64,000 nucleotides of DNA from positions 62,001 to 126,000 of the forward strand of contig JAUHYP010000001.1 in assembly GCA_030426265.1 (NCBI GenBank), in the 5' to 3' direction. The position numbers were made by a program, and so were the translations under genes. This document shows, in pieces, positions 52,752 to 62,912 of this stretch. The stretch's first letter is position 1. Each line of letters starts with the position of its first letter. Under the pieces are notes generated by a model. The model was not told where the DNA came from. It saw only the letters and a program-made list of their open reading frames with translations, and made no database searches. This stretch comes from Gammaproteobacteria bacterium. GTDB taxonomy: Bacteria > Pseudomonadota > Gammaproteobacteria > Xanthomonadales > SZUA-36.

Positions 52752-53960
52752 CTAACCGGGTTTGCCGTCCACCCTGGGCCGAATCAGGATGGGCGTGTAC
52801 ACCAGCGCGAAGATGAGAAATCCCGCCATCCACAGCACACCGGAGAGGCTGATGAGGTCGCTGTAGTGCGCCGGTGCGATGGCCGGGCCGAACACACGGG
52901 TGGCAGCCGCCAGTGCCACCAGCAGGTAGGAAACAGCCATTACGGGGGCGACCTTCAGTTCGCGTCCCGTATGGCCCAGCGATGCCCGGGACATGACGGC
53001 CAGGATCATCATGGCTGCTGCGCCGGCGCCGAGGGCGTGCATCCAGAAGGCCGCCCAGCCAAATCCACCGAGCAGAAACGCCGTCTTGAGCAACAATCCG
53101 ACCGGTATCCATGCGTAAGCCAGGTGCAGCACCCAGACAATGGGCTCCGCGAACGTCCGGTGTCCGTTCCACCCCGAGAGCCGGGCCGCCTGCGCCAACC
53201 CGGCAATCAGGGCGACCGCCCCGGCCCAGGGCGTTGACGGCAGCAGCAGGTCCACTGCCAGGAGCGCGATCATGGAAAGAATGACGAGGCCATCGAGGGC
53301 CGGGAAACTGCGCAGCCTGGGCTCGATCCCGCGTCGCCGCAGGGCATTGGCGGTGAAGGCGGGAACGATTCTTCCCCCGATCACCGTGACCAGGAGCAGC
53401 ACGAGGTTCAGTGCGAAGGCCAGCGCGGCGCCGGCAAGGCCCGGGTCGCTGCGAACCAGGCCGATCATGAAGACGACATCGGCCGCCCAGAGCGCGAACA
53501 GCACGAACAGAAGTCGGGTATTGCCATTGCGTGACCGGAGCAGCGCGGGCGCGACCAGGGCCGCCAGTGCGGGAAGAAACGCGAGTTCGACGATGGCAAG
53601 AATCCACAGCGGCGCCCACCCCGCCAGCAGAAAGCCGACCCGGCCGAAGAGCCAGAGCAGGGTCAACAGGACGAGTGGCCAGCCTCCGAAGCCCTTCGAA
53701 CCTGTCCAACTGGGTACGGCCGTCAACATGAAGCCGGCAATTGCCGCCGCGACGAATCCGAACAACATTTCATGGCCATGCCACTGGGATGGCGGCAGGG
53801 CGCCCGTCCATATCAGGCCGCCCCGGTAGAGAATCAGCCAACTGGCCAGGCCAAACACGGCGAACCAGCCGGCCAGCAGGAAGAACGGACGGAACCCATA
53901 GGAAAAAAGCACGATGCCTTGCCTCGAAGGCGATTCGGCATGATCCATTGCGACACCCAT
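52752..53960 (-). CDS. nnrS: NnrS family protein (NO stress/denitrification)
   Basis: SYGFRPFFLLAGWFAVFGL, WHGHEMLFGFVAAAIAGFMLTAVPSWTG. Confidence 0.93.
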   Translation of the reverse strand: MGVAMDHAESPSRQGIVLFSYGFRPFFLLAGWFAVFGLASWLILYRGGLIWTGALPPSQWHGHEMLFGFVAAAIAGFMLTAVPSWTGSKGFGGWPLVLLTLLWLFGRVGFLLAGWAPLWILAIVELAFLPALAALVAPALLRSRNGNTRLLFVLFALWAADVVFMIGLVRSDPGLAGAALAFALNLVLLLVTVIGGRIVPAFTANALRRRGIEPRLRSFPALDGLVILSMIALLAVDLLLPSTPWAGAVALIAGLAQAARLSGWNGHRTFAEPIVWVLHLAYAWIPVGLLLKTAFLLGGFGWAAFWMHALGAGAAAMMILAVMSRASLGHTGRELKVAPVMAVSYLLVALAAATRVFGPAIAPAHYSDLISLSGVLWMAGFLIFALVYTPILIRPRVDGKPG

Positions 53961-54021: not shown

Positions 54022-54091
54022 ATTCTACAAAGCCCGTGTCATTGCCCAATTGACCTGCGTCAAGTAGTGGCAGGAGCGATTGTTCTAGATT
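54022..54091. promoter_or_regulatory. Bidirectional FNR/DNR-type promoter for nnrS (-) and qNor (+); palindrome at 54050-54063
   Basis: TTGACCTGCGTCAA palindrome; TAGATT (+, 54086-54091) and TAGAAT (-, 54027-54022), each starting 29.5 bp from the palindrome centre. Confidence 0.8.
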
Positions 54092-56973: not shown

Positions 56974-58347
56974 TCAAAGAACCCGGCTGAACTGTTCCTG
57001 GCGCGTCGCGCCGACATGGGCATCGAAGGCCTGGACCAGCGCCCGGCTGACCAGGCGGCCCTGGTCGGTGATGCTCAACCTTCCCGGCCCGCACTCGGTG
57101 AGGCCTTCATCGCTGAAGCGGCGCCAGGCCTCCAGGGCTTCCCTGAAGTAGTCGTCAAAGGCGATGTTCCACCGGGTCTCGACGGCGCCGGTGTCGAGTT
57201 CCAGGTCGCACAGCAGTCGCATGATCACGTCCCGCCGGACCTCGTCATCGGGGTCGAGCCGGTAGCCCCGGGAGATCGGGAGCCGTCCCGCATCGAGTAG
57301 GGCCTTCCAGGGTTCGACGCGCTTTTCATTCTGCAGATACAGACGGCCAAGGTCGCTGATGGCGCTGACGCCGAAACCGACCAGGTCGGTGTCACCGTGC
57401 AGGGTGTAACCCTGGAAATTCCGGTGCAGCTGGCCTGACCGCTGGGCCTGCGCCATGGCGTCGTCCTCCAGCGCGAAGTGGTCCATGCCGATGAAGCGAT
57501 AACCGCTGTCCTGCAGCAGGGTTCCGGCGCGGGAGATCATGCGCACTTTTTCTGCAGGTGAGGGCAGTGTGGATTCGTCGATCTGCCGCTGTACCTTGAA
57601 GCGTCCGGGCAGGTGGGCGTAGCTGTACATGGAGATCCGGTCCGGCCTCAGCGGCAGCAACCGATCCAGGCTGTGCATCAGGGTCGACTCGCTCTGCAGG
57701 GGCAGGCCGCAGATCAGGTCCACGTTGATCGAGTGAAAGCCGGCCTCCCGAGACCAGGCGACCGTGTCGCGAATCATCTCGAAGGGTTGCACGCGGTTCA
57801 CGGCTTTCTGCACCAGTGGGTTGAGGTCCTGGACGCCCAGGCTGACCCGGTTGAACCCAAGGCCGCGGATTGTCATCAGGCGTTCGCGGTCCACCGTGCG
57901 CGGGTCGATCTCGATGGCGTAATCGCCTCCGTCATCGGTTCGCAGGCTGAAGTGGCGTCCCAGCGAGCCCATTACGCGGGCCAGCTGGCTGTCATCGAAG
58001 AAGGTCGGTGTGCCTCCGCCAAAGTGCAGCTGCTCGACCGTTCGTGCCGGGTCGATGCCTTCCGCGCGCAGGCTGATCTCCCGCTCCAGATCATCGAGAT
58101 AGGCCGCACCTCGGGCCTTGTTGGCCGTGATGATGCGGTTGCAGGCGCAATAGAAGCAGACGGTGTCGCAGAACGGTACGTGGGTGTACAGCGACAAGGG
58201 GCGTCGGTTCGCGTTCCCGGCGTCGATCGCCGCCGCGATGTCATTCGCGCTGATCGAGTCCCTGAAGTTCGGCGCCGTGGGGTAGGACGTGTAGCGAGGT
58301 CCGGGGCCACCGTATCGACGAATGATCGATTCGTTCCAATCCAGCAC
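56974..58347 (-). CDS. hemN: Oxygen-independent coproporphyrinogen III oxidase (GTG start proposed; upstream ATG at 58377)
   Basis: GPRYTSYPTAPNF, CDTVCFYCACNRIIT radical SAM motif, GGGTPTFF; AAAAGGA SD 8 nt before GTG. Confidence 0.94.
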   Translation of the reverse strand: MLDWNESIIRRYGGPGPRYTSYPTAPNFRDSISANDIAAAIDAGNANRRPLSLYTHVPFCDTVCFYCACNRIITANKARGAAYLDDLEREISLRAEGIDPARTVEQLHFGGGTPTFFDDSQLARVMGSLGRHFSLRTDDGGDYAIEIDPRTVDRERLMTIRGLGFNRVSLGVQDLNPLVQKAVNRVQPFEMIRDTVAWSREAGFHSINVDLICGLPLQSESTLMHSLDRLLPLRPDRISMYSYAHLPGRFKVQRQIDESTLPSPAEKVRMISRAGTLLQDSGYRFIGMDHFALEDDAMAQAQRSGQLHRNFQGYTLHGDTDLVGFGVSAISDLGRLYLQNEKRVEPWKALLDAGRLPISRGYRLDPDDEVRRDVIMRLLCDLELDTGAVETRWNIAFDDYFREALEAWRRFSDEGLTECGPGRLSITDQGRLVSRALVQAFDAHVGATRQEQFSRVL

Positions 58348-58404
58348 GTGTGCGGTCCTTTTCTTGGGTCTGCTCATTGTCCATCGGGACGGCGATGCCC
58401 CGAA

Positions 58405-58418
58405 TTGACAATGGTCAA
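58405..58418. promoter_or_regulatory. FNR/DNR-type palindrome between hemN and the TonB receptor
   Basis: TTGACAATGGTCAA. Confidence 0.75.
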
Positions 58419-58479: not shown

Positions 58480-60675
58480 ATGAAACGGATCGGATGGGTC
58501 CTGGCCATTCTGGGTGCAGGCATGGGCGAGGTCATGGCTGCGCCCGCCGACGGGAACGAAGACATCTTCGAATTCGATCCGGTCGTCGTGACCGGGCACA
58601 AGTACCCCCTGCACCAGTCTGAAGTCGCCGGCCAGATCGGCGTGATCGACCAGGAGGACATCGAGAAACACCTGGTCGAAAACCTCGACCAGCTCTTTCG
58701 GTACGAGCCCAGCGCAGGCACGCAGGCCGGCGACACCCGATTTGGTGTCAGTGGTGTGAGCATTCGCGGCGTTGGGGGCAACCGGGTCGCCATCGAAGTC
58801 GACGGGGTACCCATCCGCAACGGCTTTGCGATCGGCAGTTACTCGAATGCGGGCAGGGCGCTGGTGGAAACCGACCGCATCAAGCGCGTGGAGCTCTATT
58901 ACGGTCCCGCTTCTGTCCTGTATGGGTCCGACGCCCTGGGCGGAATTCTTTCCTTCTCGACCTGGGACCCCGGGGACCGGGTTCGATCAGCCGATGACAC
59001 GACATGGTTCGGCGCACGTGCCGGCTACCAGTCCGCCGACCGGAGCACGGTCGGCAATGCCGGCGCAGCCTGGAGCGACGGCGAACATGGCGCGCTGGTG
59101 TCCGCGACGCTTCGTCATGGACACGAAACCGAAAGTGCCGCGGTCGGCCGGGAGCAGCTCGACCCACAGACCTGGCGTGGGCTGGATTTCGCGGCCCGCT
59201 ATACCTTCGATAGCCCGTACGGGCACGCCGTTCGCCTGGGTATCGAGCACTTCGAACGCGAGGTCGACACCGAGGTTGCCTCCCGGTTGGGATATGGGCG
59301 TCTCGCACAGGTCACTGCATTGAGTGGCGATGACGACGACCAGAGCACCCGCGCATTGTTGGATGTGGATTTCAGTACGGAATGGCTCGACACGGCCGTG
59401 GCCCGAACATTCCTGGACGCCAGCCGGACCCGCCAGCACACCAGGGAAGAACGTGGTCGGCTCGAGCCGCCGCTCTACCTGGAGCGCAGTTTCGAGTTGG
59501 ATAGTGATCTCTGGGGTATCGAACTCAACGGGTTTCGTTCGTTCCGGGTCGGCACGAGTGAGCACCGATTGGGGCTGGGGCTGGAGTTCCTATCCACGCA
59601 CATCGAAGAACTGCGTGACGGCTTCCAGCAGGACCTGGAGAGTGGCGACATCACCAGGGTCATCCTGGGCGAAGTTCTGCCGACACGGGATTTCCCCAAC
59701 TCCTCGACGCGGGAGTTCAGCCTGTTTCTCGAAGATGTCATCTCATTTGACGAAGGGACCTGGACGCTCTCACCAGCCCTGAGATTCGAACGATATGCGC
59801 TGCGGTCGCATCCCGATGAACTGTACCTGGAGTCCTTTCCCGACCAGGCCACTGTCAATCTCGACGAGAGCAGCCTGACTCCGCGACTCTCAGCTCGCTA
59901 TGCCTTCAACACGGACTGGAGCGCTTACGGGCAGGTTTCGCGCGGGTTTCGGGCTCCGCCGGTCGAGGATGTGAACATTGGGTTCGAGCTTCCGTTGCTG
60001 CGGTACCGCGCCATTCCCAACCCGGACCTGGTGTCCGAGACGTCGGTCAGCTACGAATTCGGTGTGCGGCGCCACGTTGCCGATGGACGCCTGGCGCTCA
60101 CCTGGTTCGACACCCGCTTCGACGACTTGATCGAGTCCCGTGCGTTCAAGGGATTCGATCCGGCCTCCGGATACCTGGAGTTCCAGTCGAGAAACATCGG
60201 AAAGGCGCGCATCTACGGCATCGACGTTCGCTGGGACCAGGGCCTGGAAGCCTGGAGTCCTGCACTCGATGGCTGGACCCTGCGCACCGCCGCGCTGTGG
60301 TCGCGAGGTGAAAACCAGACCGACGACCAGCCGCTGAACAGCGTTTTGCCCCCGCAGCTCATCGCCGGGCTCAAGTGGCGATCGGGCAGTGGCGACTTCG
60401 ATGCCGAACTGATCACGACCTGGACGGATGCCGTGGAGCGGGTCGACCTCAGCGCGGGGCCGCGGTTCCTGCCGTCCTCGGCGACGGAGGTGGACTTCGT
60501 GGCCGGTTGGCGGCTATCACCAGCGGTTTCCCTGCGGTTCGGCCTGTTCAATGTCCTCGATGAAACCTGGTGGCGCTGGTCGGACGTGCAGAACCTCGAG
60601 GCGGACGACCCGGTCATTCCCCTGCTCGCGCAGCCTGGCAGAAACTTCAGTGTTTCACTTCGGTTCGAGGGGTGA
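58480..60675 (+). CDS. TonB-dependent receptor, heme/hemoglobin-receptor type
   Basis: TonB box-like DPVVVTG, plug domain VSIRGVGGNRVAIEVDGVPIRNGF, FRAP...NPDL segment typical of heme receptors, beta-barrel C-terminus. Confidence 0.85.
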   Translation: MKRIGWVLAILGAGMGEVMAAPADGNEDIFEFDPVVVTGHKYPLHQSEVAGQIGVIDQEDIEKHLVENLDQLFRYEPSAGTQAGDTRFGVSGVSIRGVGGNRVAIEVDGVPIRNGFAIGSYSNAGRALVETDRIKRVELYYGPASVLYGSDALGGILSFSTWDPGDRVRSADDTTWFGARAGYQSADRSTVGNAGAAWSDGEHGALVSATLRHGHETESAAVGREQLDPQTWRGLDFAARYTFDSPYGHAVRLGIEHFEREVDTEVASRLGYGRLAQVTALSGDDDDQSTRALLDVDFSTEWLDTAVARTFLDASRTRQHTREERGRLEPPLYLERSFELDSDLWGIELNGFRSFRVGTSEHRLGLGLEFLSTHIEELRDGFQQDLESGDITRVILGEVLPTRDFPNSSTREFSLFLEDVISFDEGTWTLSPALRFERYALRSHPDELYLESFPDQATVNLDESSLTPRLSARYAFNTDWSAYGQVSRGFRAPPVEDVNIGFELPLLRYRAIPNPDLVSETSVSYEFGVRRHVADGRLALTWFDTRFDDLIESRAFKGFDPASGYLEFQSRNIGKARIYGIDVRWDQGLEAWSPALDGWTLRTAALWSRGENQTDDQPLNSVLPPQLIAGLKWRSGSGDFDAELITTWTDAVERVDLSAGPRFLPSSATEVDFVAGWRLSPAVSLRFGLFNVLDETWWRWSDVQNLEADDPVIPLLAQPGRNFSVSLRFEG

Positions 60676-60684
60676 TCCGGCGTC

Positions 60685-60698
60685 TTGACGCGGGTCAA
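60685..60698. promoter_or_regulatory. FNR/DNR-type palindrome upstream of nirS
   Basis: TTGACGCGGGTCAA; TAGCCT -10-like hexamer at 60721-60726. Confidence 0.78.

Positions 60699-60749: not shown

Positions 60750-62912
<2,163 letters not shown>

Follow-up and report, generated by a model that had tools for sequence, protein, structure and literature searches.

In the 64,000-nucleotide stretch of gammaproteobacterial DNA analysed here (the window), nnrS and the quinol-type NO reductase gene qNor diverge from a 177-bp intergenic region that holds a Dnr/FNR-type palindrome, and the question raised by this locus is whether a single operator can serve both genes. Judged from its sequence, the segment 54022-54091 is quite probably a shared, back-to-back class II promoter at which NO-activated Dnr, bound to the one palindrome, would drive both qNor and nnrS. 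The preliminary description of the locus placed the palindrome and two candidate -10 elements, TAGATT and TAGAAT, at positions that proved correct to the base when recomputed, and the family matches agree with the names it gave to the two genes (Table 1).

The operator is built of two five-base half sites, TTGAC and GTCAA, which form a perfect palindrome around a non-palindromic centre (CTGC), and it has the form TTGAY-N4-RTCAA upstream of denitrification genes that is expected of a Dnr site. The first base of TAGATT on the forward strand and of TAGAAT on the reverse strand (54027-54022) each lie 29.5 bp from the operator centre, so both predicted starts place the activator at -41.5, in keeping with the -41.5 rule for activation by FNR (PMC3688515). 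Recomputation reproduced the palindromic half sites and the symmetric spacing that had been claimed: each divergent gene has a -10 at the appropriate distance from the one operator, the hexamer beginning about 29.5 bp away and the activator centre lying near -41.5 on the qNor and nnrS arms alike. Moving either hexamer by 1-2 bp leaves at most 3/6 matches to TATAAT, and TAGAAT is the sole 5/6 match on either strand of the intergenic region. Should transcription begin where this geometry predicts, the leaders would be about 40 nt for qNor and about 55 nt for nnrS.

Table 1. Features of the nnrS-qNor locus and its surroundings, in window coordinates
Feature	Position	Strand	Remarks
nnrS, 402 aa, PF05940, divergent target	52752..53960	-	Family match
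Predicted -10 of nnrS, TAGAAT	54022..54027	-	Class II spacing; predicted start ~54015
Dnr/FNR-type operator TTGACCTGCGTCAA	54050..54063		Centre 54056.5; box kept before qNor in relatives
Predicted -10 of qNor, TAGATT	54086..54091	+	Class II spacing; predicted start ~54098
qNor, quinol-type NO reductase (qNor-type NorB), 756 aa, PF22085 + PF00115	54138..56408	+	Family match
SirB-family membrane protein, 134 aa	56498..56902	+	90 bp downstream of qNor
TTGAC-N4-GTCAA box 2, upstream of hemN	58405..58418		-10 GACAAT at 30.5 bp, - strand
TTGAC-N4-GTCAA box 3, upstream of nirS-like gene	60685..60698		-10 TAGCCT at 29.5 bp, + strand
Dnr orthologue, 227 aa	equivalent of 64154-64837	-	154 bp past window end, beside nirS cluster

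The symmetric placement of the -10 elements is unlikely to have arisen by chance. In 20000 dinucleotide-preserving shuffles of the operator flanks, the qNor arm reached at least 4/6 matches at its exact forward-strand position with P=0.0186, the nnrS arm reached 5/6 or better at its exact reverse-strand position with P=0.00135, and 0/20000 shuffles had the two arms together. All of these figures were obtained once the pattern was already known, and they serve as a guide rather than a clean test. The operator itself belongs to a small set. Sites of the form TTGAN6TCAA number three in the window against 0.43 expected, and the fuller TTGAC-N4-GTCAA has only three copies in the 3.64-Mb assembly, all within a 6.7-kb part of the window and adjoining qNor/nnrS, hemN and nirS, respectively. 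The three full Dnr boxes suggest that in this lineage the set covers NO production through nirS, haem supply through hemN and NO handling through qNor/nnrS.

The preliminary description had left the activator as one of the FNR/DNR type, and of these two the genome points to Dnr. Two CRP/FNR-type regulators (HTH_Crp_2) score above the family cutoff in the assembly, which is 97.7% complete. The Dnr orthologue, whose closest match among solved structures is P. aeruginosa DNR (3dkw, E=1.5e-36), has the recognition helix SVQPETLSR against SIQPETFSR in the latter; it carries the E-SR helix without the N-terminal cysteines of FNR, as is expected of a Dnr, and is the only regulator found in the genome with an FNR-type (E-SR) recognition helix. 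The second regulator has the helix ESVNK, unlike that of FNR/DNR, and should read a different site. FNR/ANR was rejected as the regulator, neither of the two HTH_Crp_2 proteins being FNR-like, although at this completeness an FNR may have been missed. Because the sole E-SR-helix regulator has no N-terminal cysteines, the box at 54050-54063 is most likely recognised by Dnr in response to NO, and not by FNR in response to O2.

The qNor arm can be followed through related genomes. A search for qNor in 39 genomes of the family, 370 of the class and the GTDB contig collection, in which a box was counted if at least 8/10 positions matched 55-100 bp before the gene, gave 71 qNor loci with a box (window included), mostly from Lysobacterales/Xanthomonadales. 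When 60 non-redundant loci, the window left out, were aligned on the box, the A at -11 and the T at -7 each reached 83% at an offset of 29.5 bp and were low at other offsets, this being the only offset at which both peaked jointly; the mean match to TATAAT was 2.77 there, whereas most nearby offsets gave 0.5-0.8 and no other offset exceeded 1.75. Since the -10 match peaks at 29.5 bp in 60 relatives, the qNor promoter has a conserved class II geometry, which strongly supports what had been proposed for this gene.

The mirror side has a much narrower distribution. A -10 of at least 4/6 occurs there in the window (5/6) and in one congener, G016 (CAGAAT, 4/6), and scores are lower in the other 69/71 loci with a box; mechanically called nearest upstream ORFs are unreliable in these high-GC relatives, and the mirror-side result is expressed purely in -10 scores. 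The two-armed geometry is present in the congener with a different partner gene and absent from more distant relatives, and the predicted nnrS arm is lineage-specific. Of some 110 related qNor loci that were inspected, only the one in the window has nnrS as the immediate divergent neighbour of qNor, and conserved nnrS-qNor synteny was accordingly discarded as a line of support; in one locus (L058) nnrS lies about 0.7 kb from qNor without a mirror -10.

This distribution is what would be seen if the promoter worked in one direction, with Dnr driving qNor alone, TAGAAT a coincidence and nnrS transcribed from another, weak promoter: the conserved element is the qNor promoter, and no mirror -10 of 4/6 or better accompanies 69/71 of the boxes. 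That explanation, the strongest of the alternatives, is nevertheless improbable, given that TAGAAT stands at the exact mirror position (P ~0.0014) as the one 5/6 -10 of the spacer, and given the arrangement in G016. In this congener, whose qNor is 91% identical, the box and both -10 elements are present (TACATT and CAGAAT), and a Cys-rich ORF of about 70 codons lies opposite qNor in place of nnrS; since the gene there differs from nnrS, CAGAAT could be a relic or chance. The nnrS ortholog of G016 (73-74% identical) is located elsewhere in the genome, behind a related Cys-rich ORF, and has a perfect box of its own, TTGACCGCGGTCAA, from which TATGAT is 29.5 bp distant. Given this second box, nnrS is predicted to be under class II control of the Dnr type in both species, in each by its own arrangement. 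The class II position that had also been proposed for nnrS is thus sustained at the level of sequence by an exact, non-chance -10, a similar arm in G016 and an independent Dnr box, its -10 at class II spacing, before the nnrS operon of that congener.

The Cys-rich ORFs form a family of about 70 aa (RCLExC...CPCxxGE; L028:3929-4138 (+), L141:1256-1495 (+) and L142:2711-2920 (-)). In G016 they adjoin the qNor box or precede nnrS; in a further genome, G015, one precedes nnrS. Pfam gave no credible match for the two G016 copies, and the family was not found when looked for in the window. It is possibly an unnamed NO-related small protein.

Under the shared-promoter reading, which remains the preferred one, the appearance of NO would lead a Dnr dimer to bind the single palindrome, and either face of the dimer could recruit RNA polymerase to the predicted qNor or nnrS start, because the operator is symmetric and at -41.5 from both. 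The polymerases would probably alternate rather than reside together, as the predicted starts are 83 bp apart and the DNA immediately upstream of the activator, to which the alpha subunits of one polymerase would turn, lies in the promoter of the other. The locus would then couple, in little space, the induction of an NO reductase to that of NnrS through a single operator, and its 41.5/41.5 spacing, exact to an unusual degree, would make it a natural template for studying how a single activator dimer is shared by two polymerases.

A bound activator may also act in opposite senses on its two sides, and Dnr might activate qNor while repressing or occluding nnrS, much as E. coli FNR, which activates nrf, silences the divergent promoter acsP1 (PMC5434802). 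This is very unlikely here, where the nnrS -10 is ideally placed for activation without overlapping the operator; in other lineages nnrS is activated by Dnr or NnrR (PMC1274295). Control of nnrS/qNor by another NO regulator (NsrR or NorR), with the box incidental, can be set aside as barely credible despite two Rrf2-family proteins in the genome and the control of nnrS by NsrR elsewhere (PMC1274295), for the genome has just three such boxes, each of them adjoining NO/denitrification genes, and the inverted repeats of the nnrS-qNor spacer, compared with the NsrR motif gATGyAT-N5-ATrCATc, gave no match.

The principle of a shared site is not new, and what this locus adds is a matter of detail: nnrS is paired with qNor, and the symmetry is exactly 41.5/41.5. 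Single-site divergent promoters of E. coli CRP were reportedly described by El-Robh and Busby in 2002, and P. aeruginosa nirQ and nirS may have a common ANR box, which is given no weight as evidence here. The closest parallels are in Dinoroseobacter shibae, where one Fnr/Dnr palindrome likewise lies between divergent starts of denitrification-linked genes at two shared sites, nirS/nosR2 (39.5/41.5) and hemA3/dnrE (41.5/39.5); reporters of nirS and nosR2 both depend on DnrD, and mutation of the palindrome abolishes nirS expression (PMC5398030). The gene pairs are different, the spacing is 39.5/41.5 in contrast to the 41.5/41.5 predicted at nnrS/qNor, and D. shibae is an alphaproteobacterium with four FNR-type regulators (PMC5398030). 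In Bradyrhizobium diazoefficiens a single CRP/FNR-type box also serves divergent genes that include nnrS, but the activator is FixK2 and the partner is nnrR, not qNor; in vitro transcription of both requires FixK2 (PMC6710368). Eleven E. coli CRP pairs with a single common site similarly place one dimer between two divergent promoters, though with CRP, in carbon metabolism and not in response to NO (PMC3105977). In the Dnr regulon of denitrifying gamma- and betaproteobacteria, Dnr boxes precede nir, nor, nnrS and hemN; the text consulted mentions no site common to nnrS and nor, and the consensus is TTGATnnnnATCAA as against TTGACnnnnGTCAA here (PMC1274295). A phrase search of the literature for FNR class II divergent promoters returned no paper.

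Symmetric sites of this kind recur across the class. A scan of the 370 class genomes for TTGAY-N4-RTCAA flanked on both sides by TANNNT 22 bases off gave 29 sites in 25 genomes, compared with 1 for the reversed pattern and 4 when the spacers were cut from 22 to 18, the one shifted spacing used as a control. One of the 29 (in G293) precedes norC-norB, with a cytochrome c gene divergent from it, the genes being named by eye from their translations. Tentatively, and with the odds well against it, the operator may be a portable module in which the Dnr-qNor half is fixed and the NO-related gene on the mirror side varies (nnrS here, the Cys-rich ORF in G016), with two polymerases competing for one dimer and -10 strength, in place of separate operators, setting the qNor:nnrS ratio.

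Several further features of the neighbourhood were observed. The SirB-family protein that follows qNor is possibly part of a qNor operon. At hemN, the ATG at 58377 overlaps the gene's likely -10 (GACAAT; region 58347-58381), and the true start may be the GTG at 58347, which is preceded by AAAAGGA. A TonB-dependent-receptor-like ORF (58480-60675, inside a 1020-aa frame ending at 60675; identified by eye from its translation) begins near the hemN box and is read away from hemN, and the -10 facing it, CCCAAT, is only weak. The textbook NirS has a single cytochrome c domain; the 712-aa product of the nirS-like gene of the window (60774-62912) carries two of them N-terminal to the d1 domain.
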